Shown here: piece by piece, positions 7,005 through 64,000 of the stretch
How the letters are laid out: each line of letters starts with the position of its first letter
Numbering within the stretch: the first letter of the stretch is position 1
Source of the DNA: Psococerastis gibbosa
Taxonomy: Eukaryota; Arthropoda; Insecta; Psocodea; Psocidae
Length of the DNA stretch: 64,000 nucleotides
NCBI GenBank assembly: GCA_963971405.1
Contig: OZ020485.1
Location: 13,330,001-13,394,000, forward strand
Reading direction: 5' to 3'
Notes under the pieces: generated by a model
Told to the model about the DNA's origin: nothing
Databases searched by the model: none
Seen by the model: only the letters and a program-made list of their open reading frames with translations
Program-made: the position numbers and the translations under genes

Positions 7005-7552
7005 AGAACGGTAGTAAAAACTGATCATTTCATCGATAAAGACGGTTGATATCTTGACGATATTTCGGTTTCCACCACAACAGCGAAATGGAGATCTTAA
7101 AATTCTACCACACTAGACGAGAAACAACCCGAAAGTTTTCCCAATGGTATCCTGCCCGAGGATCTCTCATCTTATACACAGCGTTGTCGACAATATTTTC
7201 CAATTTTTCCAAACTATTTATTTGCTATTATATCTGAAATTGTGAGGTCTTCTCCCCCGTATCCAATAACTCTCTTTTTCCTCTTTTTTTCTGTTTTTCG
7301 GTTTCATATTTCTCGGATCTCAAGATGGGTAATTCAATATCGTTGTTTCGGAGACTCTGGCCATGACTTTACCACTTGGCTGCCTACTTTATTGATATTA
7401 TCTCTCGCAGTTTTTATTCTTGGTCTTAATATTTTCTCTTTTGGGTCAAACCACTGCATGGAAAATTCAATATGGTCTTAATTAAATTAAAATAAACTAA
7501 AAGCGCACAATATCACTGTTATAATTGTCAAAAATTATAAAAATTAAAAAAC
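7005..7552. other. Unassigned AT-rich sequence
   Basis: The frame at 7242-7481 is a hydrophobic peptide without support. Nothing else is recognised. Confidence 0.35.
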
Positions 7553-7633
7553 ATGTAGCAAGTGTGGGACTCAAACCAACCGCCTTTCGGGTCGGAGTCA
7601 TCTGTATGCTACCTCTACTCTACATATCCTGAC
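7553..7633 (-). mobile_element. tRNA-derived SINE, head only (copy 1)
   Basis: The reverse strand starts GTCAGGATATGTAGAGTAG, with an A-box-like segment. It ends with a degenerate B box (GGTTTGAGTCC) and GCTACATG. Only the tRNA-related head is present; the body and tail seen in the other copies are missing. As a pol III promoter it is degenerate. Confidence 0.7.

Positions 7634-10781: not shown

Positions 10782-10784
<3 letters not shown>
10775..10784. repeat. Candidate target-site duplication, downstream side of LINE
   Basis: AGATAGACAT directly abuts the poly(A)/poly(T) end of the 10.8-16.5 kb retrotransposon and is repeated exactly at 16545-16554. The right side is locally repetitive (ACATAGATA repeats), so the exact length is uncertain. 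Confidence 0.6.
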
Positions 10785-10820
<36 letters not shown>

Positions 10821-10860
10821 GCATTGTGGGTTCACATACAGCCATGGTGGGTAGGTGGGG

Positions 10861-14604: not shown

Positions 14605-14845
14605 AAGAATTAGTTAAAAATACCAAAAATACCTCCTGACTGTTACCAGGCACACGTACACATACGTGCATAGGCCTATATGCACACAAACAGACACCCA
14701 TATATGCACATGCACAGGCACATGCATACACATGCATGCCGCATACATACAAGGATATGCAAAGGGCATAAATGTATATATGTAGTAATTATACGCAGTT
14801 AACGTAATTTATTTAAAATAGCAGTACGTATGGTACAAACAGATT
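14605..14845 (-). other. ORF1-ORF2 spacer with alternating purine-pyrimidine tract
   Basis: 241 bases separate the ORF1 stop from the ORF2 start. About 14642-14760 is a CA/TG-rich alternating tract (repeated ACACATAC, GCACATGC and CATGCATAC units). Such sequence can adopt Z-DNA and forms weak hairpins. How ORF2 is translated from this bicistronic layout is unknown; the spacer is the obvious place for a reinitiation or internal-entry signal, but that is inference. Confidence 0.6.
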
Positions 14846-16366: not shown

Positions 16367-16544
16367 ACCCTCTCACTTATTAGGCACTAGGAACGTGAAA
16401 GGTTGAGAAAAAACGCAAAAAAAAGCAGGGTCCAACCGCACAAACCCAATAAACACACCGCACACCGGTTTTCACTTGCTCAACAACTAATAGGTTAGGT
16501 GTTGTCGCTAGCGCGTCCCGACACAAACTGACATAGATATACAT
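16367..16544 (-). promoter_or_regulatory. LINE 5' leader, presumed internal promoter
   Basis: About 178 bases lie between the candidate 5' end and the ORF1 start. Elements of this type carry an internal pol II promoter here so that it travels with each copy. I see no unambiguous initiator or downstream motif, so promoter function is inferred from position only. Confidence 0.4.
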
Positions 16545-16809: not shown

Positions 16810-17676
16810 GCTTTCCAATTTATACGTAGTATAAGGAAAGCTTTGTGATGGTCGAAATTTTCGATTCCGAGATTTCAACGGATGTAGACGTTTTGAGGTC
16901 CCAGAAACCCAAAAAAGTGGTTTTTACGAAATGTCTGTCGGTCTGTCTGTGTGTCTGTCTGTCTGTCTGTCTTTGCATCGATTTCCGGGCAAACTACTCG
17001 GTCGATTTTGATGACATTCGGCATGTAGGTCCACAAAAATCATACCTCGGGTCCATTGTTTTTTATTTAGGGGGGTTTTTATTTGAGGGCGTTTTATTCT
17101 CAAAAAATTCCGAAAAAACGTCTAAAAAAATTATTTCTCAAAAACGCCTCAACGATTTCTTTTAAATTCTTATATATTGTAGTCGTTATTAATGTTGACA
17201 AAATGCGGGGGGTCGCTTGCCCCTTGATAGTTTGCTTCTGGGGGTAAAAAAATAAAAATAACTAAATTTTAATTAAAAATGACTAAAAAATAATTTTTCT
17301 GCGAAACCTTTCTATCGATGATTTCTACCTTCAGTCATGTTTTAGGTGTTAAATTGAGTAACGAAACCGGATAGGTTCCTTTCCCAAAAAGATATTTGGT
17401 TTTGCACAAAAAATTATTTTTTGAGAAAATGGTAGAAAATTCGCGCTCAAATGCATTGCGTGCTCTGCCATTATTGCTGTGTGGTAATTGATGTATTGGT
17501 CTGACCTATCTAGAATTTATCTCACTTCCAGTGACGTCAGGTGGACACTCCCCCCCCCCCCCCGATATATCGGAAATTTAACCACTGGAAAATTATTGAC
17601 CATGAAATTACTCGTATTCTCTATCTACTAATGTTGATAATTAGGAAAGCATGTTCGAGTAGACTCTAGGCGCTTC
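16810..17676 (+). mobile_element. HINE-like element, copy 2 (near full length)
   Basis: The 5' end is a compound palindrome (16810-16841): GCTTTCC, TTATAC, GTATAA and GGAAAGC arranged as two nested stems. The sequence TGATGGTCGAAATTTTCGAT follows, then a (GTCT)n tract (about 16935-16973), then TCGATTTCCGGGCAAACTAC and a body ending near GGAAAGCATGTTCGAGTAGAC. The 3' hairpin and final ACCGGTTCT are mutated in this copy. A C tract near 17551 marks an internal variable site. No protein is encoded. Confidence 0.75.
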
Positions 17677-18933
17677 AATTAAATTAAGTTGAATAATAAA
17701 GTCAAATAACAAACATTTTGACATAAAACAAAAACCAGTTATCTCGTCTAGAAGCGTACACTACTAACCATGTACGAGTACATTCAAGTCAGGCCTTTTT
17801 ATAAAACCAGGAGCTGCAGCCGCCTGAAATTTTTTTTGACTTTACACTAAATAAAATTTAATTTTCCAGACGTACGAAATTGAACTACATATTGTACTAT
17901 AGGATCACAGGGGGGCCCCGAAATAAAATCCTGATTACGGGCCTGATGCTAATTTTGTGTAATAAACTAGCGCTAGTTTTAAGCTGAATCCCATAAGCAA
18001 CTAATTGTATTAAAAATATCAAATAACTAACATTATGACATAAAACAAAAACCCATTTCCCGTCGAAAAACGTCCAAGAATCCACACAGCAACTCAACTG
18101 GAAATCCGATAATTTTGGCGGGACTTTCAAAATCTATCTCACAACCCATCTGACGGCGAAGTGCGTGCAAATCGATCCCGCTCTGGCCCAGATCCGCTTG
18201 CCTCTTTAATGCCTGGCCCTTCGCATAAGCACAACATGGGTGGCAACGTTGTGTTAAGGGTGGGAGTGGGTCGCATTGAAGCTGACGCAGGTGTAAGTCG
18301 GGGACAGTTTATCAAGCTTTATCTCAGCAATAGACGATTCACTGCTGACTGAGATAGATATTTTTTCATTCATTACCCCGCTGAATATGCTGACTCTGAC
18401 ACTTTTTCTTTCTCTATCTTATGTTTGCACTTTTATGTACTCTTGCTTTACTTCTACTTTATCTGCCATATTTGTATGTTTCTTCGTGGCAATGCAATAT
18501 GTCGTGGTCGTGGAGTTTGCTTAGTATCGGAGGAGTATCGTATATCAGTCGTGCCAACAGGTTGAGACACATTTTATACACATGACATAATATATCACCG
18601 ATTACATGAATATCGTGAATAAGTGTATTTGAGTATATCGTGGCTGTTGGGGATTCTTCGGAGTTTTTGTTAGGGGCGTTAGGACTTTAAAAGTCAGAAG
18701 GGTCTTCTATTGTATTTAGAGGGTGAGACTTAAGACTAGAAAGTCTTTTACTGTCAAGCTCACCTCGAAAAATCAATACAATTTCCAAAATACAGTATAT
18801 AGTCGTAACAAAAACAACGGTTAGCGTAACTTAAATAATATTAATCAAAACGTGTTTATATAAAAAAAATGCAGACACTCTTTTAACAATGCAACTGCAA
18901 CTGCAAAGGCTTTCAGGGCCGGAGTCGAAAGAA
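17677..18933. other. Unassigned AT-rich sequence
   Basis: Short frames at 17897-18130 (minus) and 18161-18352 have no recognisable motif. ATAACAAACATTTTGACATA at about 17706 recurs diverged at about 18020, a weak internal repeat. Confidence 0.35.
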
Positions 18934-21876: not shown

Positions 21877-22841
21877 GTGACTGTCAGTCATAAACCCAGC
21901 AAGATCTCATAAAGTGGTTTCCTGCACGAACTACTTATAAATCCGAATCTTATCACATTCCACCGTCTCTTCTTCAATTGTGTTTTCACCTTCTTCCGCG
22001 AAGAAGCTTAAGAAAATTGAATTAGTGGCCTCAGCTTTAACGTCATGCACTCATTAATGAAGCGACGCATCCCCAAAAGAAAACGTCAAAATTTATGTCG
22101 ACGGATTTTGTTGCTAACAAGTCACTGACATGGTTGGTGGCATCGATTTACATAAACATTGGGTCTGCATGTTCTCACATGTTAGATGTCTTCTTTTCAC
22201 ATTCGTTACAGGTAGTTTTTTTCGGGATGTCTGCACCAGGCTTGGAACTTTATTTCCGTCAATGTTGAATTTCTGATCACAAAACATCAATACTCAATCT
22301 AATGTCAACCCATGTTGAAGACTAATTTTGAGTCAATTTTGTCCATGTTGGTTACTCAACTTTTGTCAAAAATCTTGTTGGGAAAATAGCTTACTATTCA
22401 CGAGCATTTGTTGCAATTCTGCAAATTCAAAAACTTAAAACGCAACATGAAATATATTCACGTATATTCACGTAATTTTCAGTAACTACCAAGTTAACGA
22501 AAGTTTAATGTACCGGTGCATAAGTTGGATTTATAATCACTTTTAATTGTGTATTTATAATCACTTTTGTAACTAATACTTAAATTACAAGTTACAACGA
22601 AACTATAAGAACAATAACTCGCTCTGTTAACGTGCAATGTATTTTCTTCATGCTAATGACACAAGCAACTGCAATTCTGAAACTTAAGTAAATATGTTTA
22701 CAAGGGAAAGTTTATAGTTAGGATTGGGAAGAAGACTATTCCTCACTATTCTCTATTTTCTGCATGCCAGTATGACGCAACATTCTTAAATTGACTATAA
22801 CTCGTGCTTCAACTAAATAATAAATAAATAAGGATTTTTTA
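21877..22841. other. Unassigned AT-rich sequence
   Basis: No feature supported beyond short local duplications such as TATTCACGTATATTCACGTA (22453). Confidence 0.35.
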
Positions 22842-23019
22842 TTGTTTCTGTTACTAAGCTATATAGCCTTCTCATACACTCAACTAGGAAGGCCCGGGAC
22901 CGCCTGTTTTACATGCCCTCCGCAGCATGGCTAGAAAATGTAGCCGGCAATGTTGGACTCGAACCAACAACCTTTCGGGTGAAAGTCAGAGTCCGCACCA
23001 CTACGCTACATGTCCTGAC
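22842..23019 (-). mobile_element. tRNA-derived SINE (copy 2)
   Basis: Read on minus from 23019: GTCAGGACATGTAGCGTAGT GG gives an A box. A tRNA-like anticodon region with CTTTCACCCGAAAGG follows, then GTTGGTTCGAGTCCAAC, an excellent B box and T arm. The body has GGAGGGCATGTAAAACAGG, CCTTCCTAGTTGAGTGTA and an AGTAACAGAAACAA tail. The anticodon region is degenerate and cannot be assigned safely. This is the best-preserved head in the window. Confidence 0.85.
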
Positions 23020-24896
23020 TATAGTTAATATTTGAGAACTTAGATGTAAACGGCCGTTACCACCAACTTCCAGAAAACTTTCCCTGTAGTAAGTTCGCGT
23101 AAGTGTGCGTAAACACAATTTTAATTTTTGAAAGCTTTTGCTGATTTTATGTCAGTCGTATCAATAGCAGTTGGTAAGTGTACATTTTTGAAAGGTTGCT
23201 TCCAGGATATTCCTTACATACTATATATTGCTAATAGTGGCAACAGCTCTAAATAAATATCTTAATTTTTAACCCCTGGTGAAAATACCTAGCTTACAAT
23301 TTGGGGGAAATTACAGTGATTTTATCAAACACCATGCAAGTCCTGTCGAGGCAAAGTAACTTACTAAACTATTAATGGCAGTGGCAAAAGATGAATCAAT
23401 AAACATGATTCCAAAAGCGTCCGAAAACTTTGGGACAGCAATTTTGGAGAAAGGAGGAAAGGCTTTGAGGGACAGTAAATAAACCAAATGAGGGGACATT
23501 ACGGTAATCACGTGGCCGGACTGAGTCCGGGGGGGGGGGGGCAATTAAGTCACCACCCAGCACCCGGGAGCCATCTTTTCCATTTTACAACTTACTTCGT
23601 TTACCCGCCGTTCAAACAGCCTAATTACTGACAATTCAGGAATCAGCTTCACCCTTTTTACCTTATTTCAATTCTTCATCCCATTTTACCACTGCCCGTT
23701 TTTTCTCTAAAAATGACACAAATCTGATTATGGCACTTGTAGGTATTTATTTTTACAGTTTTTTTTTTGTAACAGCCGTTGCATGCACTGTGAATATATT
23801 GTGTTATTTAAATGTGATTTCAACACCCGGAGTACCTGACTCTTAAAAAACTTTTCATTATTCTCTATAATTAGTCCAAACTGGGCTATGTACATACATA
23901 TGTATAATCATACTAAAGTAATCATGTAATCATGCATTAGGGAGCAAAATTAATACAAAGCCGTAAAAGGCCCATTCGTAAGCAACCCGACCCCCAAGCA
24001 TAACCTTCAAATACCCAAAAAATTAGCATTCAACAACCTATTCAAATTCAGAAAAGGTCCCACTAAATTTCGCGGCGCTAGTAAAAGCACTCTAAAACAG
24101 TGTAAAGCCGTGTACAGTATAATATATCGCAATACAATGAAAGGAATATTACCGCTGTTGTACACAATGCCTACGCGAATATAAAAGCCCGATAAAATGG
24201 AATACTACGTGATCTCGCAGTCCTTTTTGCTGCGCCTAAAAGCCACCCCCCTCCCCTACTATGGGGTGCTGGATATAATAAAACGATTCCCCTTGACTTG
24301 CGCCCGATTGCTGACTGTCCCTAGCAATTTGCCTCCCCTATCAAGGGGTGCAGCACCAACAATTACGTCCTTGGGCACATCGCGCCCTTTTCCGTCTTGT
24401 GTTCCGCACCAATGCGCCTTTTCACTCCCCCCCCCCCCTCTGCTATTGAAGCCAACAATATTGTATTTGTCAACAACCGATTTGTTTCCCAAGTGGTATT
24501 CTTGATTATGTCAATAACACGTGCGTGCGAGCTCTTCACGCGCCGCCTTTTTTTCTCTCACTAAATTCTATTTTGAACGTTTGTTGTATTTATGGGTCTT
24601 TATGGAATTGAATTTTTATGCTCATTGTTTTGCAGCTGGCATGACCCTGTGTGCACCAAATTGCATGTGGGGGTACCACTCTTCCTTCGATGTTTATTAT
24701 ATTATTTTACTTATTTTACAATACCTTTCTCACAGAAATCGCGTAGTGGGATCTTCGTTTCAATCATTTATGAATATCACAAGTCATTCCCATAAACCAC
24801 ATATATGTGATACGTTGTGATACGTATAACATATCGTTATAAATGCTAAAAAAAGAACATACCTCTATGCGATTTCCGTCAATACTGGTGAGCGCA
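23020..24896. other. Unassigned; no supported gene
   Basis: Overlapping short frames on both strands at 24197-24505 and 24521-24820 show no domain. G11 (about 23530) and C10 (about 24427) tracts are present. Confidence 0.35.
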
Positions 24897-25084: not shown

Positions 25085-25283
25085 TTTTTTGTTGTTCCAT
25101 TACTAAGCCAACCTAGCGGAGTTAGGGCCATAAGCCCTCTTTTACACTCAACTAGGAAACCCTAGACCACCTACTTTACATGCCCTCCGAAGCATAGCCA
25201 GAAAATGTAGCAAGTGTGGGACTCGAACTAACAACCATTCGAGTGAAAGTAGGAGTCTGTACCACTACTCTACATGTCCTGAC
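25085..25283 (-). mobile_element. tRNA-derived SINE (copy 3)
   Basis: The longest copy. Head at the 25283 end (GTCAGGACATGTAGAGTAGT), B box GTTCGAGTCCC, body with CTTCGGAGGGCATGTAAAGT and CCTAACTCCGCTAGGTTGGC, and a tail of AGTAATGGAACAACAAAAAA. Confidence 0.85.
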
Positions 25284-26570: not shown

Positions 26571-26957
26571 AGGCGCCCATTCCATTGACCGGCTAGTGCT
26601 ATTTCCAAAAACAGTGACGTGGTAGCAGACATTCAAGACTTAGGTTGCGTTTCCATCGATCTCGCATTGCAGAATGCAAATGACATTGACGGAAATTAGA
26701 ATTTTTCTTTTTATAGAAATCTATTAAAATGTTTGTACTTAACATATCCCATGACGCCATTTTTTAATTTTAGTTTGTTTGTTTGTGATTTTACTGTATG
26801 ATCATTGATCAATTTTAACTATGGCATAGAAGAAAATAAACATTTCCGTCAATTCTGCAATGCGAGGTCGGTGGAAACGCCACCTAAGTCTTGAATGTCT
26901 GCTACCACGTCACCGTTGTTGGAAATAGCCCTAGCCGGTCAATGGAATGGGCACCTT
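26571..26957. mobile_element. Fold-back MITE (GTTTCCACCGA family), copy A
   Basis: Nearly symmetrical, about 387 bp. The outer arms are AGGCGCCCATTCCATTGACC with 50 further bases (GACGTGGTAGCAGACATTCA) and their inverted complement at the right. The inner arms carry CTCGCATTGCAGAATGCAAA and TGACATTGACGGAAATT, with complements at about 26845-26875. The central loop has GTTTGTTTGTTTGTGATTTT and TGATCATTGATCA. No ORF. Confidence 0.85.
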
Positions 26958-30336: not shown

Positions 30337-31195
30337 GCTTCCAATTCCAATTCCAATTTATAGTAGATATAAGAGAAGCTTTGTGATGGTCGAAATTTTT
30401 GATTCCGAGATTTCAACGGATTTACACGTTTTGTGGTCCCAGGAACCTAAAAAAGTGGTTTTTACGAAAAGTCTGTCTGTTCATCGATTTCTGGGCAAAC
30501 TACCCAGCCGATTTTGATGAAATTTTGCATGTAGGTTCACAATAATCATACCTCAATATATCGAATCATACCTTTTTTTATTTTGGGCTAACTCAATCTG
30601 GTGGGGTTTTATTCTCAAAAAACTCCAAAAAAACGTCTAAAAAATTTATTTCTAAAAAACGATTTCAACGATTTCTTTTGAATTGACATATATTGTAGTC
30701 GTTATTAATGTTAACAAAATGCGGGGGGTCGCTTGCCCCTTCATAGTTTGCTTCTAGGGGTAAAAAAATAGAAATAACTCAATTTTCATGAAAGATGACT
30801 AAAAAATAATTTTTCTGCGGAACCTTTCTATCGATGATTTCTACCTTCAGGCATGTTTTAGGTGTTCAATAGGGTAACAGTAACGGATGGGTTGCATTCC
30901 CAATAAATATTTGCTTCTGTGCAAAAAGTTATTTTTTGAGAAATTATGGAAAATTCGCGCTCCAATACATTACGTGCCATGTGACATTGTTACTACTGTT
31001 ACAATGTATTGGTCTGTTCGTTCCAGAATATGCCATTAAGTTTTAAGGGGGTCTTAATATATTGAGGTGGACCCCCCCCCCCTCGAGGGATCTGAAATTT
31101 AACCATAGGGAAATTATTTCCTATGAAATTACACATGTCTATATCTGCTAATTTATAAATTAGAAAGCATGTTCGAGTAAACTCGGACCGGTTCT
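30337..31195 (+). mobile_element. HINE-like element, copy 3 (full length)
   Basis: From GCTTCCAATTCCAATT at the 5' end through GATGGTCGAAATTTTTGATT to a body shared with the other copies. The 3' end has TAAATTAGAAAGC, the hairpin CGAGTAAACTCG (31174-31185) and GGACCGGTTCT. The microsatellite is contracted to GTCTGTCTGT. 859 bp. Non-coding. Confidence 0.8.
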
Positions 31196-31927: not shown

Positions 31928-32780
31928 GGCGGGGTTTCCACCGACCTCTCATTGCAGAATGCACATACGTTGCAGACATTCAAGGCTTAGGCGGGGTTTC
32001 CACCGACCCCTCATTGCAGAAAGCAAATTACATTGACGGAAATTTTAATTTTTCTTTTGATAGAAATCTATTAAAATGTTTTTACATAACATATCCCATG
32101 ACGCAATTTTTTAATTTCAGTTTGTTTGTTTGTGATTTTACTCTATGATCACTGGGGTTCATTTGTGGCGTCATTTTGTAGATGGCAGCATGAGTTGCAA
32201 TGATATCAAAGCGTTGATTTTTCCATAAGCTTCAATACTATTTTAAAATGATTTTTAATTACGTATTATTTTAAAGTGATATTTTACTATAAATCATGGA
32301 GAATATATACATTAAATTATATGCAGCTAAATAAGGTCCATGCATAGTAAAAATATTATAAAAAATATTAAAAGAATTAATTAGATGCTAAGAGCTTAGT
32401 TTTCGCATGCAAACGGCGGCCATTTTGAATAATATGGATATCGGTTTGTCCTCAGCGAACCTAGTGACCAAAACTGTCCCTACAGAACCTCATTTTAACT
32501 GTGGCATAGAGTAAAACAAAAATTTCCGTCAATGTCATTTGCATTCTGCAATGAGAGGTCGGTGGAAACCCCGCCTTTATTAATGATATCTGCTACCACG
32601 TCAACGTATGTGCATTCTGCAATGAGAGGTCGGTGGAAACACCACCTAAAACAAAAATCTCCGTCAATGTCATTTGCATTCTGCAATGAGAGGTCGGTGG
32701 AAACCCTGCCTGTATTAATGATATCTGCTACCACGTCAACGTACGTGCATTCTGCAATGAGAGGTCGGTGGAAACCCCGC
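31928..32780. mobile_element. Composite fold-back MITE (GTTTCCACCGA family), copy B
   Basis: Left arms begin GGCGGGGTTTCCACCGACC at both 31928 and 31990. Matching right ends close at 32575, about 32645, about 32708 and 32780. The block 32503-32645 is repeated directly at 32646-32780, so the right side is a tandem of fold-back arms. Each arm carries TCTGCAATGAGAGGTCGGTG and CTACCACGTCAACGTA-type segments. The loop is interrupted by a foreign insertion at about 32155-32480. Confidence 0.85.
32155..32480. other. Insertion inside the loop of MITE copy B
   Basis: Relative to copies at 26571 and 46257, about 330 bases interrupt the loop between TTTTACTCTATGATCA and TTTTAACT. The ends CTGGGGTTC and GAACCTC are weakly inverted. 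Unclassified; AT-rich, no ORF. Confidence 0.5.
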
Positions 32781-36246: not shown

Positions 36247-37087
36247 GTACAAGTACCAATCACGTCATCAACGATAATAAAATGGAATAGATTGTGCCAA
36301 ACCAGGTCCTGATTTACCTGATGAAACCACCTAAAAAAACAGAATGAATCCTACTCTGATTCACAGGAGGTACATTACCGAAATTTTATTCAAAGCAGCG
36401 TAACCAATGCTCAAAATTTCGGCAATGTGAGATAAAAATATTCTCCACTCATCGCGTTCTTAGAATACGTCATGCGTAAATGGAAACCACAGATTACAAT
36501 ATGTATCTCTTCTCCCCGCACTCCATCTTGCGTACTTTAGAATTTCAAAAACTCGAAGCTTTTCATGAGCAAAAAAAAAAAATGAAAACACAAAAGAATT
36601 TGTGCCGTGATACAACCGTTGCTGTACTGTAGCTACCCCCTACCCCCCTACCCTTCTCGTAAAAATATTCAGCTCATCGCTAAGGGGAGCAATATAGGGA
36701 CGGAACACAATGAAACTGCTGGGCAGCAAGGGTGGACAAACAGAACTGCAGTAGACTATTGTCTGCTTTGTCTTTATGTCCGATATTGACCCGACTTGCT
36801 CAATTCAATTTTCATTTTGAAACCGGACAACAGTTCTACGTCCAAAACTTGTCCTCCGTTTGCAAATAGCATCATTATCAAGCCATCAGTGGCGGATCCG
36901 GTTTTTTATTTTAAGGGGTCATGCTTGCCGAAATTGGGGCCCTTTGCTAAGTTAGACCGGTTTATGGTAGCCTATTTTTATTAAATATTTTTTTTGTTAA
37001 TTAGGTAAACCTGCAGTCCGATCAATTTGAACGCTGTGCACCCGATTTCTGCGATGTCTAATCAATAATAATAGAATAAATACTGGC
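36247..37087. other. Mostly unassigned
   Basis: CAGTGGCGGATCCGG at about 36890 resembles a hAT terminal repeat without a partner. No gene supported. Confidence 0.35.
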
Positions 37088-37266
37088 TTCTTGTTCTAAT
37101 ATTAAGCCAACCTAATGGAGGTACGGCTGTAAAGCCCTCTCAACTAGGAAAGCCCAGGACCGCATGCTTTGCATGCCGTCCGAAGCATGACCAGAAAATG
37201 TAGCAAGTGTGGAACAAACCACCTTCCGGGTGAAAGTCAGAGTCTGTACCACTACTCTACATGTTA
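37088..37266 (-). mobile_element. tRNA-derived SINE (copy 4)
   Basis: Body and tail match copies 2 and 3. The head is damaged: the B box is lost by a deletion (GTGGAACAAACC on plus) and the 5' end is cut after CATGT. A likely old, inactive copy. Confidence 0.8.
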
Positions 37267-42726: not shown

Positions 42727-43879
42727 ATTAAATAAACATGAGCTAAACTTGACCTAAAATCATCAATAAGTACCCGTTATTTTTAACTGGTCAAGTTCAA
42801 TGACTGTGGCCGATCAGTGTTAGAACTGTACATTACGTATTTTTTTTTATTCTCGCTTAAGCAGTGGAACAAGGTGCACCTTTTACTCAAACTAAAGGCA
42901 AAATCTTTTTTTATTGATTATGGTACCACAGATGATCGGAGTGTTATGATTCGTTGAAATAAAGTGAAACTAAAATCGATTGCTCTGTTACAGGTAAGAA
43001 ATGCCAAATTTGTGAAAATGCAAACGTAACTTCCCAAGACATTTCCACAAAGCCAACTATAAAATATCATGTCGTAAGTAAAACTATAATTAAGTAAAAC
43101 TATAAACTATAAGAAGAATTAATTCAAATTACATCGAAAGGTGGGGTCAAGGGATCTCCCCCGAGGAATGCTTTTATTTTAAATATTTGCGAAATAGTGG
43201 GGGTTTCTGCTTTTTTTCATACCAAGGGTAATGGAAAACACGCAAAGCTTGAAATATGTTATCTTATGAAAGCAACCAAACTTTTAAAAATAATGTAATT
43301 TAGTGTAAATTGTATAACAAGTTCACATGAATAGTATAATTGAGACTTATCACCAGGGGTGGTGGCAATTAGTTTCCAGGGGGAAATTTACCCCTGCCTC
43401 CCTGTTTATGCGTCCCTGCTTACAATACAAGTAAATATATGACACAATCATTAAAAAGTTGGAAGAAAAAGCAAAAAACTTTACCAAGAAATATCACCCC
43501 TGAGGGTTACGATTAATTGCTAGTGGAGGAACTAAAGTATCAGCTGACGAAAGTTGACCGCAGAAAATAGTTTGGAATTGAAACAAATGACCTCTGACCT
43601 CCCAGAGGTCTTAAAAGCTGGATACCACCCTGATGGCGACAAGACTTTCGTTTTAGGGTTTAATGAGGAAGAGTGAGCTTTTCCGAATAGGGGAGGGTGT
43701 AGGAGGGGGTTAGAGTTTTGGAATGATTAGGGGACCTGTCAGCAGTGCCCCAACTTCCAAAAGTTTCGGTTTCGTTTTAATGATTTTGATCATTGATGAC
43801 AAGGAGGCAAAACGTTGCTGACCAAAACATCCCAAATAGAGCAGTGGGCATGAGAGAGAGTATCTTCTACCTGTGCTTA
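42727..43879. other. Mostly unassigned
   Basis: About 43140-43430 contains GGGATCTCCCCCGAGG and AAATAGTGGGGGTTTCTGC, a diverged relative of the hAT MITE interior at 612 and 34145, without definable ends. No gene supported. Confidence 0.4.
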
Positions 43880-44144
43880 GGCGGGGTTTCCACCGACCTC
43901 TAATTGCAGAATGCACATGACATTGACAGAAATTTTTGTTTTACTCTATGCCATAGTTAAATGTATCAATGATCATAGAGTAAAATCACAAACAAACAAA
44001 CTAAAATTAAAAAATGGCGTCATGGGATATGTTAAGTACAAACATTTTAATAGATTTCTATAAAAAGAAAAATTCAATGTCATTTGCATTCTGCCACGTC
44101 AACGTAAGTGCATTCTGCAATGAGAGGTCGGTGGAAACCCCGCC
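43880..44144. mobile_element. Fold-back MITE (GTTTCCACCGA family), copy C
   Basis: GGCGGGGTTTCCACCGACC at the left and its inverted partner at the right end. The central segment (ATCAATGATCATAGAGTAAA) is in the opposite orientation to copies A, B and D, which suggests inversion or recombination between arms. One right arm is partly deleted. Confidence 0.85.
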
Positions 44145-46256: not shown

Positions 46257-46656
46257 CCACCGACCTGCAAGTGCAAAATCCACATACGGTGACGTGGTAG
46301 CAGATATCATTAATAAAGGGGGGGTTTCCACCGACCTCTCATTGCAGAATGCAAATGACATTGACGGAAATTTAAATTTTTCTTTTTATAGTAATCTATT
46401 AAAATGTTTGTACTTAACATATCCCATGACGCCATTTTTTAGTTTTAGTTTGTTTGTTTGTTTGTGATTTTACTCTATGATCGTTGATCAATTTTAACTA
46501 TGGCATAGTGTAAAACAAAAATTTCCGTCAATATCATTTGCATTCTGCAATGAGAGGTCGGTGGAAACCCCGCCTTTATTAATGATATTAATGATATTAA
46601 TGATGCCACGTCACCGTGTGTGTATTTTGCACATGCAGGTCGGTGGAAAGCGCGCC
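46257..46656. mobile_element. Fold-back MITE (GTTTCCACCGA family), copy D
   Basis: Outer ends GGCGCGGTTTCCACCGACCT and the inverted GGTCGGTGGAAAGCGCGCC, flanked by ATA on both sides. Inner arms (from about 46319 and up to 46575) carry the standard CTCATTGCAGAATGCAAATG segment. The structure is therefore a hairpin within a hairpin. The loop matches copy A. Confidence 0.85.
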
Positions 46657-50829: not shown

Positions 50830-51529
50830 AGAACCGGTCCTAGCTTACTCGAACATACTTTCCAATTTATCAATTAGTAGATGGAGGAAATGAGTAATTT
50901 CATGGTAAATAATTTTCCTATGGCTAAATTTCCGTAAATTCTAGATAGATCAGACCAACACATTACCACACAGCAATAATGGCAGGGCACGCAATGCATT
51001 TCAGCGTGAATTTGCTTTCATTTTTGGAATTTTTTTTTTGCACAAAACCAAAAGGTTTTTTGGGAAAGCAACCTGTCCGGTTTCGTTACTCAACTTAACC
51101 CCTAAAACATACCTGAAGGTAGAAATAGTCGTTGAAAGGTTTGACGGAACAATTATTTTATAGTTATTTTTCTTAAAAATTTAGTTATATTTATTTTTTT
51201 ACCACCAGAAGCAAGCTATCAAGGGGCAAGCGACCCTCCGCATTTTGTCAACATTAATAACGACTACAGTTTTTGAGAATTAAACCCCCCCGAAATTGAG
51301 TTAGCCAAAAAACATCTGTTCATTTTTGTGAACCTTCATGCCAAATTTCATACGAATCGACTGAGTAGTTTGCCCGGAAATCGATGAACAGACAGAGCGA
51401 CAGACAGACATTTCGTAAAAACTTTTTTGGGTTCGTGGTACCTCAAAACGTGTAAATCCGTTGAAATCTCGGAGTCGAAAATTTTGACCATCACAAAGCT
51501 TTCCTTATACCACGTACAAATGGGAAAGC
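50830..51529 (-). mobile_element. HINE-like element, copy 4 (internally deleted)
   Basis: The 3' end is AGAACCGGTCC at 50830, with a mutated hairpin (CTAGCTTACTCG). The 5' palindrome (GCTTTCC..GGGAAAGC) closes at 51529. The microsatellite is GACAGACAGA at about 51396. About 160 bases shorter than copy 3. Lies just upstream of the plus-strand LINE. Confidence 0.78.
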
Positions 51530-51867: not shown

Positions 51868-52661
51868 ATGAGCAGAACGTTCCTAAGTCTAGTCGACAAT
51901 GAAGATACTAAAGAAACCAATGTATGCAGAAATAACTTTGATATCAATTTCTTCAGTAATAGACATTTAAAAATTTTACAAATGAATATTAGAAGCATAG
52001 GAGCTAACTTCGACGAATTTTTGCTAATTCTAAACGGCACTGGCATTCTCTTTGATATTATAATTTTAACTGAAACATGGCACTCCCAAATAAATCCGAA
52101 AAGAAATTTTACTATACCAAATTATCAAACTTATCTTTACTCAAGTGAAATAAATAAATGTGACGGAATTGCGATCTTCACGCGGGCTAGCCTCTCGGCT
52201 ACCTGCTCACCGGCCGGAATACCCGGTAGTTGTGCGGCTCATATCTCTTTAAATTCTCTAACGAACTCCAAAATATTCTGGCCATATACAGACCTCCACC
52301 CACGAACGTTGCTACATTTATCTCCGGCTTAGCGACTTTTCTATCTGGCTTCCAAAATAATGATATGATCCACTTGGCAGGGGATGTAAATATTAACATA
52401 CTCGACACAGACCTCGATAACGTTACTTTAGAATACCTGAATTTACTGTCGTCCAGAGGCTTTTACTCGGTTATCAACTGCTACACTAGAGTAGACGGAA
52501 CTATTATGTCCTGCATAGACCACATCTTTACCAAACAAACCAATCATAGCTCGGGACATATACTACACTACAATCTAATATTACAGACCACTACATCACA
52601 GCTCTCTCAATACTACATAACAACTCGCAACCAGTGTACGAAAAAAGGAACAAACTCGTAG
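51868..52661 (+). pseudogene. LINE endonuclease region, two frameshifts
   Basis: The EEP-type endonuclease is read in three pieces: 51868 to about 52215 (LQMNIRSIG, ILTETWHS, DGIAIFTRA), about 52225-52575 (NILAIYRPPP, HLAGDVNINIL, SCIDHIF), then the frame of the RT ORF from about 52580 (TDHYIT). The active-site pattern N-E-D/N-D-DH is still recognisable across the pieces. The frameshifts would prevent synthesis of a functional nicking domain, so this copy is probably immobile. Confidence 0.8.
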
Positions 52662-54868
52662 AAGTAATAGACCATAATAGGCTTAGTGAACTTTTAAAAA
52701 ACGAGTCATGGGCGGCAGTTCTGGAAGAAACAGATACAGATAAATGCGCCCAAAGTTTTCAAACTACCCTCAACAGCAACATAGGTGCCAGCAAGAAACA
52801 AATGAAAATTTCTAATCGCGTAACAAAATTAAAACCGTGGATGAATAATGATCTACTAATACTAATAAGGCAACGTGACAAACTAAAACTAAAACTAAAT
52901 TGCCAGCAAACTAACGTAGCCCTGAGGCAAGACTATAAAAAGAATAATAATAGGGTGAAACGCGAAATAATTAAAACAAAAAACTGTTATTACAAAGGAA
53001 AACTACAAGAACATAAAAACAACTTAAAGAAAACTTGGGAAACTATTAACGAAATAACTGATAACACGAAGATACATCACGAGATCACAGAAATTACTGA
53101 TAGTAGGGGTCACTCAATAAATAACAGTAACCTAAAGGAGATGTGCGATACTTTCAATTACTACTTTTCCACTGTGGGTGAAAGACTTGCTGCAAATTTA
53201 CCATTAGCACAAGCTTACCAAGATGGGGCAAATAACAATCCAACATCCATATTCTTAACTCCTATTGATGAAACAGAGACAATGAAATATATTTCCCAGT
53301 TAAAGTCTAAATCATCTTCAGGTCCTGACAAAATCTCTAGTTCCTTTCTTAAGAAGCATGCGGAACACTTACTTGAACCTCTCACCCATCTCATAAACCT
53401 CTCATTAACAAATGCGGTGTTCCCTAAAGTACTTAAAATTGCTGAAGTCATACCTGTTCATAAAAAAGGCCCAAAGACTGTCATGTCTAACTATAGACCG
53501 ATATCACTTACGAGTACCATTGCTAAACTTATTGAGAAAACTATCAAATCAAGACTGACCAACTTCTTAGAAACAACAAACTACCTATCAAACAACCAAT
53601 ACGGATTCAGAAATGGACGTAGTACTCAAGACGCGATTGCAAAACTTTCATCCCTACTATATAAGGATCTTGACGACGGAAACCACCCCGTATGCATATT
53701 CATAGACCTTGAAAAAGCTTTTGACACAGTGTCCCATGAGTTATTGCTTAAAAAACTTAATCGTGCCGGAATTAGAGGCCACGCTAACAACCTAATAAGA
53801 TCTTTTTTAACAGACAGGCAACAATTCGTACGACTTTCCAAAACTAATAACGGTTATCAAACGTCTTCCCTAAGTTGCACAACAACTGTGACATGCGGGA
53901 TCCCTCAAGGTACAGTCCTGGGTCCTCTGTTATTCTTGATTTTTATAAATAGCCTACTCGAAATGAATCTGGATGGTACTCTGCTGGGTTTCGCTGATGA
54001 TACAACTCTATACTTTTCAGGCAAAACCTGGGACGACACACATACTAAAGCAGGAAATGGAATTAAGAGAGTTAAAGAATGGCTAGCTAACAATCAGCTT
54101 ACTCTTAATACCTCTAAGACGGAATACATCACATTCAGCCTTACCGCAACGGGCCAACCTGCCAGATCATCCATAAAGTTACATGAAAGACTATGCGACC
54201 CTAACGTCCCCGATTGCACATGTCATGTTATAAAAAGAGTAGATAACTACAAATACCTAGGGGTGACAATAGACAAACATTTGAAATGGGCTGAACACAT
54301 TGCACTTACAGCTAAACGGGTACGGAAGACAATATACAAATTTAAATTACTCAGACAAATACTTGACATTAATTTACTGAGGCAAGTTTATCTCTCGCTA
54401 GTCAACTCTATAGCATCCTACAGTTTATTGGCTTGGGGAGGTGCCCACCAAACTCATCTAGAACCTGTAGAAATCTCTATAAGACATGTCATTAGAGTCA
54501 GTTTGAGAAAACATTACCTGTACCCATCCCTAACACTGTACAACGAATTCAAGGTACCATCGATAAAATCATCTTACTGCTTCCAATTATTAACATATAG
54601 GTTACAGCAAAATCTGTCGCTCCAGGGACAAAGTGAATTCATCCAACATAACCGGATTACCCGCCTGCGTGAGAGTCGCAATCTCCAAATACCTACTTTT
54701 AAAACAGCCTCGTACAAACATTCCCACTTATATTTAGGGATTTTAGCTTTTAACGCACTACCAACTGATCTTAAAACATTAATGCCAGATAAGAAGTGCC
54801 GTAAAACAATTAAGCAATTTCTGCATAGTAATCCACAGTTTATAAACATAATATATCCGGGAGAATAG
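52634..54868 (+). CDS. LINE reverse transcriptase ORF, 744 aa
   Basis: Target-primed reverse transcription of the element's RNA. The first in-frame ATG (52634) is internal; the true start lies in the broken endonuclease region. The RT core runs from about residue 270 (VIPVHKKGP, SNYRPISLTS) through catalytic IDLEKAFDTVSH (about 357), GIPQGTVLGPLLF (about 421) and FADD (about 452; usually YADD) to YKYLGVTID (about 539). The thumb/connection follows with NSIASYSLLAWGG. No RNase H. The frame is open to the TAG at 54866-54868. Codon use is AT-rich. Confidence 0.9.
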   Translation: MYEKRNKLVEVIDHNRLSELLKNESWAAVLEETDTDKCAQSFQTTLNSNIGASKKQMKISNRVTKLKPWMNNDLLILIRQRDKLKLKLNCQQTNVALRQDYKKNNNRVKREIIKTKNCYYKGKLQEHKNNLKKTWETINEITDNTKIHHEITEITDSRGHSINNSNLKEMCDTFNYYFSTVGERLAANLPLAQAYQDGANNNPTSIFLTPIDETETMKYISQLKSKSSSGPDKISSSFLKKHAEHLLEPLTHLINLSLTNAVFPKVLKIAEVIPVHKKGPKTVMSNYRPISLTSTIAKLIEKTIKSRLTNFLETTNYLSNNQYGFRNGRSTQDAIAKLSSLLYKDLDDGNHPVCIFIDLEKAFDTVSHELLLKKLNRAGIRGHANNLIRSFLTDRQQFVRLSKTNNGYQTSSLSCTTTVTCGIPQGTVLGPLLFLIFINSLLEMNLDGTLLGFADDTTLYFSGKTWDDTHTKAGNGIKRVKEWLANNQLTLNTSKTEYITFSLTATGQPARSSIKLHERLCDPNVPDCTCHVIKRVDNYKYLGVTIDKHLKWAEHIALTAKRVRKTIYKFKLLRQILDINLLRQVYLSLVNSIASYSLLAWGGAHQTHLEPVEISIRHVIRVSLRKHYLYPSLTLYNEFKVPSIKSSYCFQLLTYRLQQNLSLQGQSEFIQHNRITRLRESRNLQIPTFKTASYKHSHLYLGILAFNALPTDLKTLMPDKKCRKTIKQFLHSNPQFINIIYPGE

Positions 54869-57760: not shown

Positions 57761-59384
57761 CTGCCTCCATTGGTTCCTTAATTTTGCATTGTCACCTTTT
57801 GGAATTTTGCTCTCCGTACTCCATACTATACAATATTATCTAGTCCTTTTAAAAATACATTTGAACCTTACTTCTAAAATTCATTGTACATTTTCCTAAC
57901 AATTCCTGCAATTAGTGTTCCAGTTATCAAATACAGCTACTACAAATTAAAAATTATATTAAAATTTACAAACATAATAAGCATCATCATTGAATTGTAC
58001 TCAGGAAAGAAGAAAATTGAGGGAATAAACTAGAAGCTGGGGATTTAATTAAAAAGAAAACGGAATAACAAAGGAGGGAGCGAGTGGTGGCCTGCATTAG
58101 AATAACAAAGAAGGCGATATCCTGATGGAAAATGCAGAGCCCAGTAATGAAAAGTATGAAAAATTCATGGGAGCAATAGTGGGGGAGGAGGGGGCCCAGC
58201 CGGTGCAACGCCCCCCTCCCCCCTCCTCCTCTCCGCCAATGTCATTTACTTCTCATTTTGTAAATCCAGTTTTTGTAATTCAATCGTGTCCCACCGCAGT
58301 GGTTGGCAACTGATGGGAGTTTGGCCCCGAGGTGAGATGTCCATTTTTTGTATTTATTTATTTTTTGTTGGTTTTGCGTTAGAGATTGAATTTATTTTTG
58401 GTGCAGTTGCAAGCTATGTGTGCGAAACTACTGTTGTTGTTGAAAAGGTGTGGGTAAGGAAAGTCTGGATTTGAAGGGGCGTAAACGGATGTGACGTCTA
58501 AATGAAGGATATGAGACTAGGTTCGAAAACACCCAAGGTAATTAAATATACTATATGGCGCCTTACCATAAATAAAGAAATATATATTTCTTTTAAATTT
58601 TACAATACAGGAGTAATCTACAAATAATTGACAAGTAAGTATAAAGTAAAATCGCCAAAATATCGTCAAAATCAGGTCATTGTGCTAGTATAATGGGCAG
58701 GCCAACAAATTATAAAACAGAAATAATGTCAGGGTGTCCAATGCATTGGTGTATGATATATTCATATAATTAGTTAATTACAAAGACTTGCACTGCCGTA
58801 GATACGTGATAAAGCAGTAGAATCCGAGATGGTAGGCCGTCGTCGATCTGAAAGAGTACTTCCAAACGTTTTGTCAATATCTCCGGTCGACATCTTCAGT
58901 GGAACTGCGCAGAAGATTGTCTCTCGTAGGTTCCGCAGCAACTCCCTGCAATCATCCTCCTCTTCTCTCTGTCCTGCGCCTTTCTCTTCAGGTCTTGGTG
59001 CGTTCGAGCTCCTGTGTCATAATGGGTAAGCAATAACAGCGGATTAATTCAGGAGTGACCGATATCTACATTCCACATCGTCTTATTAAACATAGATGAG
59101 CGAAAAAATAGGGAAATAAAGGTAGGTCTGATTTCGAGTGAAAAACATGCGATGTAGTGGGAATATAGGCCAGTAGTTGAACATAACCCGAAATCATCAA
59201 CATGAAAGGAGCAACAAGGGGTAGTTCCCCGGCACGCACGTTTTCCTCCATCGATCACAAAAATTGAAAAAGGTTGTGATCCTTTCCGCGGGTGCCTTCC
59301 TGGACAGTTCACAATTACTTCATTCAAACTTTTCAGATAGGTATTGATTATTGGATTGTTGTTATGCATTTCTATTTATAAGTT
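57761..59384. other. No supported gene
   Basis: 58815-58900 (CAGTAGAATCCGAGATGGTA and ACTTCCAAACGTTTTGTCA) is related to the fold-back element at 18934. Nothing else is recognised. Confidence 0.35.
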
Positions 59385-59575
59385 AGTAGAAGGAAAGCTT
59401 TGCGAAGATAGAAATGATCGATTTTGAGATTCCAGTGGATTTATACGTTTTGATGTCCCAGGAACCAAACAATTTTATACGACATGTCTGTCTGTCGGTG
59501 TGTCGTTGATTTGTGGGCTAAATAATCGGTTTAGAATAAAGGCCCACAAAAATCATATTCTGAGATCCTGTAGCT
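59385..59575 (+). mobile_element. HINE-like element, partial copy 5a
   Basis: GGAAAGCTTTGCGAAGATAG, GATTTTGAGATTCCAGTGGA and ATGTCTGTCTGTCGGTGTGT match the 5' third of the family, more diverged than its neighbours. It stops at about 59575, where copy 5b begins. Confidence 0.65.
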
Positions 59576-59579
59576 TTTT

Positions 59580-60479
59580 GCTTTCCAATTTATACGTAGT
59601 ATGAGGGAAGCTTTGTGATGGTAGAAATTTTCGATTCCGAGATTTCAACGGATTTACACGTTTTGAGGTACCAGGAACCCAAAAAAGTGGTTTTTACGAA
59701 ATGTCTGTCTGTCGCTCTGTCTGTCTGTCTGTCTGTGCGTCGATTTCCGGGCAAACTACTCGGTCGATTTTGATGTAATTCGGCATGTAGGTTCACAAAA
59801 ACCATACCTCGGGAAGTTTTTATTTTTATTTTGGGCTAACTCAATTTGGAGGGGGGGGGGGTTTATTTTCAAAAAACTCATAAAAAAATCTAAAAATATT
59901 ATTTATCTAAAACGGCTCCAACGATTTCTTTTAAATTCACATATATTGTAGTCGTTACAATTGTTGACAAAATGCGGGGGGTCGCCTGCTCCTTGATAGT
60001 TTGCTTCTGGGGGTAAAAAAATAAAAATAACTCAATTTGATTGATAAAATGATAAATGACTAAAAAATAATTTTTCTGCGAAACTTTTCTATCGATGATT
60101 TCTACCTTCAGGCATGTTTTAGGTGTTAAATTGAGTAACGAAACTGGACAGGTTGTTTTCCCAAAAAACTATTTGGTTTTGCACAAAAAATTATTTTTTG
60201 AAAAAATGATAGAAAATTCACGTTCAAATGCATTGCATGCCCTGTCATAATTACTGTGTGGTCATGTGTTGTTGTGACCTATCTATAATTTACCTCACCT
60301 CCAGTGACGTCAGGTGGACAACCCCCCCCCCCCCCCGAGATGCCCGAAATTTAACTATAGGAAAATTATTGCTTTTCAATTTATACGTAGAAAGCTTTGT
60401 TTACCATGAAATTACTCATTTTCTCTAGCTACTACTTGATAAATTGGAAAGCATGTTCGAGTAAACTCGGACCGGTTCT
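59580..60479 (+). mobile_element. HINE-like element, copy 5b (full length)
   Basis: Best complete copy, 900 bp. It has the 5' compound palindrome, (GTCT)n at about 59701-59733, the conserved body, TAAATTGGAAAGC (60440-60452), the hairpin CGAGTAAACTCG (60458-60469) and GGACCGGTTCT. A 20-base partial 5' end (GCTTTTCAATTTATACGTAG) is duplicated inside near 60371. C16 tract near 60321. Confidence 0.85.
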
Positions 60480-60681
60480 TTTAGTTTGGGCTTACTCAAT
60501 TAAAAAAAAAAAAAAAACGGCTAACAGCTAAAGCCATTTGTTCTTTATGCGCATATATTGTGGTCGTTTTGAATTCAATAATATCCAAATAGGTAGCTTG
60601 CCCCAGTGGCGGACCGTGACTGGAAATTATTTGGCATTTTCGGATTCCGTGGCCCCTTCCACAGGTCAAAAATATATTATT

Positions 60682-61150
60682 GCTTTCCAATTTATACGTA
60701 GTATAAAGAAAGCTTTGTGATGGTTGAAATTTTTGATTCCGAGATTTCATGTTTCAAACTACTCGATCGATTTAGATGAAATTTGGCATGTAGGTTAACA
60801 AAAATCATACCTCGAGATTGTTTTTTTAATAGGGGCTAACTCAATTTTATGGGGGGTTTATTCTCAAAAAACTCCAAAAAACGTCTAAAAAATTTATTTC
60901 TTATAAACAGCACCAACGATTTCTTTTAAATTCACATACGTGTAAATTGAAATCGTCATTAATGTCAACAAAATGCGGTGGGTCGCGTGCCCTTTAATAG
61001 TTTGCTTCTGGGGGTAAATAAATAAAAAATTCTTTTTTGAAGAAATTATGAAAAATACATTGCCTGCCCTGTCATTGTTACTATACTGTTACAATATATT
61101 GGTCCAGAATATGCAATTGAGTTTTAAGGGGTTTTTAATATATTGAGGTG
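60682..61150 (+). mobile_element. HINE-like element, copy 5c (microsatellite lost)
   Basis: An intact 5' palindrome and TGATGGTTGAAATTTTTGAT. It then jumps, deleting the microsatellite block, to AAACTACTCGATCGATTT. The body continues to about 61150 without the 3' hairpin. Confidence 0.75.
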
Positions 61151-61219
61151 GATTTTTTTCCCTTGGACGTACGGCCCCACACAACTATTTTTGGACCGGG
61201 AAATGCCCGTCTGCCAGTC

Positions 61220-61480
61220 TGCCTCTGGCTTGCTCCTTGATAGTTTGGTTCTGCAGAAAAAATAACAAAAGTGGCTCAATTTTCATGAAACATTACCAAA
61301 AAATTATTTTTCAGCGAAACCTTTCATCGATGCTTTCTAACCTCAGGTTGCTTTACCACGCAAAGTTTTGGTTTTGAATAAAACGGTTTTTTTTTCGAAG
61401 AAATTATGGGTAATTTATGCCCCAATACATTGAATACCCCGTCATTATTACTGTGCTGCTTTAATTGGTCTGCCCCCTGT
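61220..61480 (+). mobile_element. HINE-like element, partial copy 5d
   Basis: CTTGATAGTTTGGTTCTGCA, AAAAATTATTTTTCAGCGAAA and CCCCGTCATTATTACTGTGC match the body of the family. Both ends missing. Confidence 0.65.
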
Positions 61481-61630
61481 AGACTGTGCAATTGACCCAT
61501 CGATCAATTCCGTACTTTGGGATAGGGAAGTCGAGGCAACCAAAATGTAACCTTAGATTTATAGTTACACTGATACCGACTGCCGCAGTTTATCTCTAGA
61601 TAAAGGTTAATGAAATAAATAAATAGTGGA

Positions 61631-61799
61631 ATTTTGTTCTATTATTAAGCCGGCCTAGTAGAGTTACACTCAATTGGAAAGGCCCGAGGTCACCTGCTTT
61701 ACATGTCCTCCGAAGCATGACCAGAAAATGTAGTAATTGTGGGGCTCAAACCTTTCGGGTGAAAGTTGGAGTCAGTACCACTACTCTATATGTCCTGAT
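61631..61799 (-). mobile_element. tRNA-derived SINE (copy 5)
   Basis: Head at the 61799 end (ATCAGGACATATAGAGTAGT), damaged B box, conserved body (CTTCGGAGGACATGTAAAGC, CTAGGCCGGCTTAATAATAG) and tail AACAAAA. Confidence 0.8.
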
Positions 61800-64000
61800 T
61801 AATAGATCTATAATATACAGTGTTTGAAACTTATTTTTTTGTAGAATACCCTAATGAATATTAAGCAGTCTATTTACTAGGGCGTTGACAGTTTATCCAC
61901 ATGTTAAATGCATTACTGCTGAAAGTTGGTCAGAAGCATGCTGAGCTTATTAATCATGAAATTACCCTGAAAATAGGCATTTATTATATTACGGGTACGC
62001 CCATAAGCATATAATGCCCTCGGAAGAGAAAGCATATTATCATAATGGCGAGCACAAATGTAATGGCTTGATGATATGTGACGACGTGCTGAATTTATCA
62101 TGTCGACACAAAAATTATATTGATTGGGGCCTATACGCTGCGGTGCTCCGTAAACAGGGCATTTTACATTAATATGTAATGTAGCCTATGCTGATGCCCA
62201 TTGCCGGTTGCTGGGCACCCGGAGAGTAGGTTAACTTGCAATTATAGCGGACTGCAGTAATTTCAATTCCGGTAAATGGTTTACAATACCTAGCCACTAT
62301 ACTCTTGCAGGCGTACCCTAGATTTGGATCCAGAGGGGGGACAGTTGCAAAACTTTGATTAAATTGATCGGTTTTCGAGAATTTATTTGAAACTTTTTCG
62401 AGTACCTATAAACATTAAAATCGGATTTAATATATCTAGCTAAAATTCCCACATTTTTTTCTATTGTATGCATTCATTAAAGAAAACCCAATTGTGGCGT
62501 ATAGAAGCCAAAGCGTATAACTACATTTTTTTTTTAAATTTTGAGATAACTGCACCATGGTCTTCCTGAAGCAATATCTATTTGTCACGAAGTAGAAGAA
62601 ACGTTCTTCTAAATTCTAACGTGACTGCAGTCGTCACTCGTCACTAAAACCAATCGACCACAGTCAGTTATTGAACTTTATAAGTAAAAAAGTAACGGAC
62701 GCTGAAGCCAATTGGTGTAAGACTGGTGTATTAAAGTGTTGCGAAACATTCCTTATATTTTTCTCAATTATAAACTCTACGATTTATTTTTCCTGTGAAA
62801 TTGGATTTCAATAATAAACTGACTGTGGAGTTTTCGATGGTCTTTGAATACCATGGAAAATGGCTCTTTCGGGGCCTCCAACTTAAACTTAACAATGCTT
62901 GCCATTGTATTGGGTTGGCTGTTGCCACTCATAGTTCATCCCATATGTAATGTATTGAAAATAAGGCGGAAAAATCAAGAGTGGCCGGAAGGTGCTGCCA
63001 TCTACAAAAATCAAGGGAACCATAGGAAGAGACAAGTCAAAACAGGGAGAAGGAGAAAATGGCCAAATATGAGAGGTTGTTTTGATTTGTATTTTTTTGA
63101 AAAGAAATGATGGAAGGCTGAGGGCTTTTAAGGCCTTACCGGGGCCAAGAGGGATGAGAGATGAAGTACCCTTACACTGACAAAACATTGGACTTGGAGC
63201 GGCCATGAACACCAGGGAAGGAAATATCAAAAACATTACCCTCAACAGTGCTACATAGGTAGTCTTACTGCAATATTACATCTTACGAAGCATTGCAATG
63301 TCACTTTAAAGTAATACAACGCCAACAGTTTTAAGCAGTCCTTGTGAGAGTTTCCTTGGTGACTTCGTGGAACATCATGAGTAGAGGAAGAAGAACGCAA
63401 TGTTTTAAGCAGACAAAGGTTTTACAAGGGTTAGTGGAAATGGCATTGGTCAGGCTCTTGTGTTTCGAAATTTCCAGCGAAAAGTCACTTCAGGGAGTAC
63501 CTCTGGAATGGCCTCACCCGCCCCCCCCCCTCCTTCCTGCTCAACATTCCTGCATAGCAAGCATTTCCTGGAAATCATGCCGACATTTACAAATCCAGTG
63601 GGAACGAGCTCGTAGATTAAATTTTCATCACCGAGTGAAACTTGAAATGGGCACCCGTATACTGTTTGGAAATTGAAAATTTTCCAGAAACATAACCTAC
63701 TACTATTATAGGGATACTCACTAAAGTAAGAAAACTGAGGTAAAATGAAAAATTCCATGCCTGGAGTGGGCTACACTTTACGCTATTTGTTTCGAATTTT
63801 GTTCTGCGTAATGCCCTCTTATCCAATCTTCATAACTGGAAACGAGGAGAGTCAATTAGTGAGTCAAAAACCAATAATTGCTGAGTTGTAGCTTTATATA
63901 GGGTCAGCACTGCTGCTTATATCGGATTTTGCTGAAGCTTTACCCAGCTCTATTTTCTGACCTTATGCTGCTGCAACTGCTATTGGCTACTCATTATCGC
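61800..64000. other. No supported gene
   Basis: 62330-62500 is copy 2 of repeat K. Frames at 62844-63110 and 63344-63676 (plus) and 62889-63245 and 63450-63758 (minus) overlap each other and lack domains. Confidence 0.35.
62330..62500. repeat. Dispersed repeat 'K', copy 2 (uninterrupted)
   Basis: Matches 38690-38990 without the 105-base LINE insertion, serving as its empty-site reference. Confidence 0.65.

Follow-up and report, generated by a model that had tools for sequence, protein, structure and literature searches.

Near one end of the 64-kb stretch of DNA that was analysed (the window), at 59.4–61.5 kb, lies a cluster of related repeat copies in which young elements are nested in an old one. 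The old copy, c59365, is split into three pieces on the plus strand. The first (59366–59579; nhmmer 59363–59558, model 20–238; alignment) opens at the 5' end with GCATTTCTATTTATA after a T and reaches as far as the block A poly-T, the second occupies 60479–60595 (nhmmer 60513–60604, model 309–419, E 0.0012; alignment), and the third (61228–61567; nhmmer 61228–61490) aligns with a second old copy of the window to about 61568. The first interruption is a young complete copy, c59580 (59580–60478, plus strand; nhmmer model 5–905, 987 bits), which sits in the block A poly-T of c59365 with junctions CTTTTT/GCTTTCC and GGTTC/TTTTAG. The second is a hAT-like insertion (60604–61227; no strand assigned) with ends CAGTGGCGGAC...GTCTGCCTCTG, which, like its duplication, were read directly. 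Its 8-bp target duplication consists of GCTTGCCC on the left (60596–60603, plus strand) and GCTTGCTC, the first 8 bp of the third piece, on the right; the two are alike at seven of eight bases, and the site is single in five other copies. This insertion probably belongs to the hAT class, an assignment based on the positions of its ends and on the duplication, since 573 of 2,000 random stretches gave an end alignment equally good. Within it lies a third copy of the family, c60682 (60682–61165, plus strand; nhmmer 60661–61033 and 61024–61173), which is 3'-truncated and internally deleted. A sequence-only reading of this DNA had described four copies arranged head to tail between 59385 and 61480. 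Because the pieces of c59365 join in order across both insertions (alignment, nhmmer), a head-to-tail multimer is ruled out here, and the limits have also shifted, the oldest copy starting near 59366 and extending to about 61567. A true head-to-tail junction of two copies (GGTTC-TTTATT-GCTTTCC) is found elsewhere, at L005 4925–4932, so tandems of the family do exist in the genome.

The window as a whole contains six younger copies, of which four retain both ends, besides two or more older copies that have been split. Self-comparison placed copies at 2.4–3.1 kb (minus), 16.8–17.7 kb (plus), 30.3–31.2 kb (plus), 50.8–51.5 kb (minus) and 59.4–61.5 kb (plus), and together with alignment bore out the five substantial copies listed earlier (2384, 16810, 30337, 50830 and 59580), two of which are on the minus strand. 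The sixth younger copy (60682) and the second old copy (approximately 2188–2384 and 3106–3195) are additions to that list. An nhmmer profile built from the six younger copies recovered these and the older pieces, while its best match in the reversed window had an E value of 0.015. Besides c59580, the best-preserved members are c30337 (30337–31194, plus strand; 913 bits), a complete copy whose junctions were read, and c16810 (16810–17677, plus strand; 983 bits), which is complete with a decayed 3' end. c50830 (50831–51529, minus strand; 481.6 and 282.6 bits; alignment) retains both ends and has internal deletions, and c2384 (2385–3101, minus strand; 840.7 bits, model from 149) is 5'-truncated inside its GTCT tract. 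The host of c2384 is the second old copy, present as a 3' part (2188–2384, minus strand; nhmmer 2301–2188, E 2.5e-7) and a part upstream of c2384 (3106–3195, minus strand; E 9.2e-5); when joined, these flanks align across the junction with 61367–61568 at 63%. Pairwise identity is 75–87% among the younger copies and 63–67% between c59365 and the younger copies.

Alignment of the copies gives a complete form of approximately 860–900 bp, laid out as a T run, GCTTTCCAATTTATACGTAGTATAAGGAAAGCTTTG (the 5' repeat with its partial inverted repeat), a GTCT tract about 120 bp in, an AT-rich middle with a C run, TAAATTGGAAAGC, ATGTTCGAGTAAACTCGGACCGGTTC and a further T run. The 5' terminus is GCTTTCC, preceded by the first T run, and the 3' terminus is GGTTC, before the second. 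In c59580 the 5' compound palindrome (59580–59611, plus strand; direct reading, hairpin fold) comprises the 13-bp repeat GCTTTCCAATTTA and the partial inverted repeat GGGAAGC, and a partial inverted repeat beside the 5' repeat (GCTTTCC...GGAAAGC) characterizes the family. The exact inverse of the 5' repeat, TAAATTGGAAAGC (60440–60452, plus strand), matches it at 13 of 13 positions; it sits 26 bp in from the 3' end and precedes the hairpin GTTCGAG-TAAA-CTCGGAC (60455–60472, plus strand; fold); sampled copies have the same layout. The 5' compound palindrome, the internal 3' partner and the T-rich flanks of the sequence-only reading are all present in the alignment and by direct reading. Its 12-bp hairpin is in reality larger, with a 7-bp stem that includes one G.T pair and a TAAA loop, and the final string that it placed after the hairpin shares one G with it (CGAGTAAACTCG + GACCGGTTCT), the version with a doubled G having 0 matches. 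The stem-loop formed in three of the five window 3' ends folded and is absent from two decayed ends; DNA fold energies of the three intact ends resemble those of shuffled sequences (z −0.17 to −0.58). In a variant of the 3' end, seen in L001, L002 and L003 and found exactly at three genome places, there are three bases fewer between repeat and hairpin. Exact copies of GCTTTCCAATTTA occur five times in the window against 0.00 expected (100 shuffles), with at most two mismatches the count is 12 against 4.24 (a small excess), and the 3' string CGAGTAAACTCGGACCGGTTCT with at most three mismatches occurs four times against 0.00. The GTCT/TGTC microsatellite of block A (59702–59736 in c59580, plus strand; Tandem Repeats Finder, period 4, 8.8 copies) does fall in the first quarter of the element, as had been proposed, yet it is not a constant feature: it is reduced to (GTCT)2 in c30337 and c50830 (minus), c2384 (minus) starts within the tract, and none is left in c60682.

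The targets of the family are rich in T. Across the window and the fetched loci, T occupies position −1 in all 18 5' ends and −5 in 17 of 18, giving a 5' flank consensus of TTWTT/G, and position +1 in 14 of 15 3' ends. In the window alone, T accounts for 33 of 56 bases flanking the 5' end (permutation p 0.00025) and for 23 of 40 flanking the 3' end (p 0.00195). The clearest view of an insertion is given by a copy at L016, which sits in another repeat. Its occupied site reads GCCA-T5/element/T3-A, whereas 13 of the 14 same-orientation relatives crossing the junction have T6 and then A, after GCCA (12) or GCAA (1); the fourteenth (window 28363) has diverged at the site. At this site, therefore, insertion added two Ts and nothing else, and the expectation of an insertion without a fixed-length target duplication, put forward with the original reading, held for the one insertion tested to the extent of at most two Ts. 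The two Ts may belong to the ends of the element, which would then insert without duplicating anything, or they may be a duplicated TT of the target; published DINE-1 sites are ambiguous in the same way (PMC2374699). The site of c59580, with nine Ts as against 5–7 in five other copies, fits the two-T result less exactly; of the two insertions in c59365, the hAT-like one is accompanied by its 8-bp duplication, c59580 by nothing but Ts. The repeat that furnished the empty sites is itself present at 26615–26912, 46290–46575, 43876–44144 and 31969–32154 and in nine fetched loci, and it matches itself in both orientations, as an inverted-repeat, MITE-like sequence does.

A gain of exactly two Ts over 13 of 14 empty sites is also what would be left by a MITE of a cut-and-paste DNA transposon making a 2-bp TT target duplication, and the copies are suitably short and non-coding. 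However, the element does not have inverted repeats at both termini, as the 3' repeat lies 23–26 bp inside in those 3' ends where it can be read; any duplication is at most TT, which published DINE-1 sites leave equally ambiguous; and the family has in common with DINE-1 a 3' hairpin and a GTCT tract. We consider a MITE of this kind very improbable. The family is far better described as a non-autonomous rolling-circle transposon of high copy number, of the Helitron2/Helentron type (DINE-1/HINE-like), a description to which we give a probability of roughly 0.9. The earlier reading as a HINE/DINE-1-like family is well supported by the ends, the target, the microsatellite, the 3' hairpin, the lack of coding capacity and the empty-site comparison, with Helentrons and Helitron2 both as candidates for its narrower affiliation. 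As to coding capacity, the lone frame of at least 110 aa within a copy has 111 aa and no Pfam family, and a Pfam scan of 28 of the 35 window frames of at least 110 aa found no Rep or helicase.

In the parts of the published descriptions available to us, the closest counterpart is DINE-1 of Drosophila, which like the present family has 13-bp subterminal inverted repeats, the 5' one accompanied by a partial inverted repeat, a block A containing a GTCY microsatellite, a stem-loop immediately behind the 3' repeat, insertion at TT and no coding capacity (PMC2374699). Strict Drosophila DINE-1 has a conserved 90-bp core, and GCTTTCCAATTTA differs from all 14 rows of the table of subterminal repeats in that report (PMC2374699). 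HINE-Mo of the mite Metaseiulus shares palindromic subterminal repeats, a 3' palindrome and a T-rich target left unmodified, but its 3' repeat lies approximately 38–60 bp from the end as against 26 bp here, and its partner is known (PMC4067079). With 7 bp, the 3' stem is as short as the published range of 7–11 nt allows. Helitron2_Cv and Helitron3_Cv of Calliphora are DINE-1-like, a likeness drawn from their description; Helitron2_Cv has a 750-bp consensus, 11-bp subTIRs, a GTCY tract, a 9-bp stem and 41 annotated copies (PMC3630058). Fungal Helitron2/FoHeli elements resemble the family in their asymmetric inverted repeats, in the end hairpins of some groups and in inserting beside T, but are mostly coding and have other end sequences (PMC5148889). 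Lepidopteran Hel-2 also combines a CTGT tract with subterminal repeats, but has TC and CTRR ends (PMC4344730). Neither GCTTTCCAATTTA nor TAAATTGGAAAGC was found in the literature searched. The family is a new one of a kind already known, and an ordinary yet very clear case of it.

The genome encodes Rep proteins of the Helitron class, as a genome search with Pfam Helitron_like_N gave 20 matches, of which several are fragments from one place. The Rep part was read at 12 places, ten of which show the diagnostic motif and two of which end before it. RGLPHAH is found at C1, C21 (two), C14:9.38 Mb and, after a stop, C14:9.44 Mb; GMVHAH at C2:17.7 Mb, C3 and C19; and the Helentron-type S, the published mark of Helentrons (PMC4067079), at C15:2837569 and at the decayed C20:19263772. 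The RGLPHAH proteins, which are of the canonical type and include three frames of 1,199, 1,619 and 1,671 aa, raise the possibility that the family is a non-autonomous derivative of a canonical Helitron (Helitron1), but its ends are GCTTTCC and GGTTC instead of 5' TC and 3' CTRR, and it inserts in T runs where a canonical Helitron would go between A and T. Together with the empty site, the ends make a canonical Helitron extremely unlikely.

The earlier reading had recommended a search for a Rep-helicase element with the same ends. We read the surroundings of Rep genes at four places, namely C1 (with parts of two siblings), C15:2.84 Mb (10 kb) and, upstream only for about 4 kb, C2:17.7 Mb and C21:2.65 Mb, and at none of these four was a Rep gene bounded by the ends of the family. 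At L027 (C1:12042501–12052500) the family's 5' 81 bp (96.3% identity) lie upstream of an open 1,671-aa Rep-PIF1 frame. Two siblings have in common another 415 bp or more upstream of this (99.8% identity), which means that the family's 5' part (approximately 330 bp) is embedded, not terminal, in the L027-type element, and L027 was rejected as the autonomous partner. A hairpin, GGGGCCC-GTA-GGGCCCC, is located where L027 diverges from its siblings, which continue alike. L027 and its siblings on C14 and C15 (L028–L031) are Helitron-type elements with this embedded 5' part; the pieces read are 99.8–99.9% identical (96–98% in the 3' part of the C15 sibling), a degree of identity that suggests recent movement. 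At L043 (C15:2831501–2841500) copies of the family flank the Helentron-type Rep on both sides in an orientation opposite to its frame, which has Helitron_like_N and DUF6570 and no helicase or endonuclease family; we do not regard it as a demonstrated partner.

If the family is of the Helitron2/Helentron type, as we conclude, its helper may have been a Helitron2-type Rep-helicase lacking an endonuclease and acting by the same mechanism, in which case it would be a mistake to call the family 'Helentron-associated'. The ends described for Helitron2 and for Helentrons resemble each other, and those of the family, with asymmetric inverted repeats and hairpins, fit Helitron2. Moreover, the one Rep-helicase frame scanned whole has no endonuclease family, and the Helentron-type S occurs in only two of the ten motif-bearing Rep pieces, the better one having no helicase in frame. 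Against this, the Helentron-type relic shows that such elements were once in this genome, and the endonuclease-less protein says little about the helper because its element has the family's 5' part embedded and not terminal. This variant, whose probability lies inside that of the conclusion as a whole, seems to us a real possibility, though somewhat less likely than not.

For the mode of transposition we infer a rolling-circle chemistry, with strand roles and a helper protein as follows. A Rep-helicase supplied in trans would nick the 5' end at T/GCTTTCC, one strand would then be peeled off until termination at the 3' hairpin and GGTTC end, and the single strand would be joined, with no staggered cut, to a T-rich target. 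When such targets are used again and again, among them the poly-T of an older family member, nested clusters would result. Circular intermediates have been reported in Fusarium. Within c59580 there is also a 31-bp insertion (60371–60401, plus strand; alignment) in a TTT target. It contains the 5' palindrome of the family and nothing else, and it is missing from the four other copies that have the site. It might be a minimal rolling-circle product, in which premature termination left only the 5' hairpin to be joined to TTT by the element's machinery, although we think this unlikely; if true, it would mean that the 5' end alone suffices for target joining and that the 3' hairpin sets only length.

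Abundance was estimated from 20 stretches of 10 kb, taken at round coordinates on four contigs of the assembly (409 Mb, 68 contigs). The profile gave 22 matches (E ≤ 1e-4) in 11 of the 20 stretches, covering 6,676 of 200,000 bp, with 0 in the reversed control. By rough extrapolation the family would make up approximately 3% of the genome, if the sample is fair. It is real, small, non-coding and very abundant, in an animal-like genome, and as expected of an animal-like repeat it has no match among phages (blastn), and its exact patterns have none among viral and prokaryote contigs. The general picture of DINE-1-like elements is unchanged by this family, which adds to it a well-bounded and very abundant member with an exact empty-site comparison inside one genome, and illustrates one way in which such a cluster can form, through nested insertion into an older copy's poly-T.

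Several other elements share the window. Scans for tRNAs and against Rfam gave no matches there. A short repeat family (61614–61800, 22819–23021, 25142–25282, 37070–37264 and 7550–7632) is possibly a SINE: its reverse strand, with a GGTTCGAGTCCC box, looks tRNA-derived. ARAGORN found no tRNA in it. A non-LTR retrotransposon (10784–16372, minus strand) has an open ORF2 of 1,250 aa, stop to stop, with endonuclease, reverse transcriptase and RNase H, a 508-aa candidate ORF1 that matches no Pfam family and, as its presumptive poly(A) tail, a run of 36 T; as a target duplication it offers only 9-base matches. A second open reverse transcriptase frame, of 772 aa, lies at 52550–54868 (plus strand).
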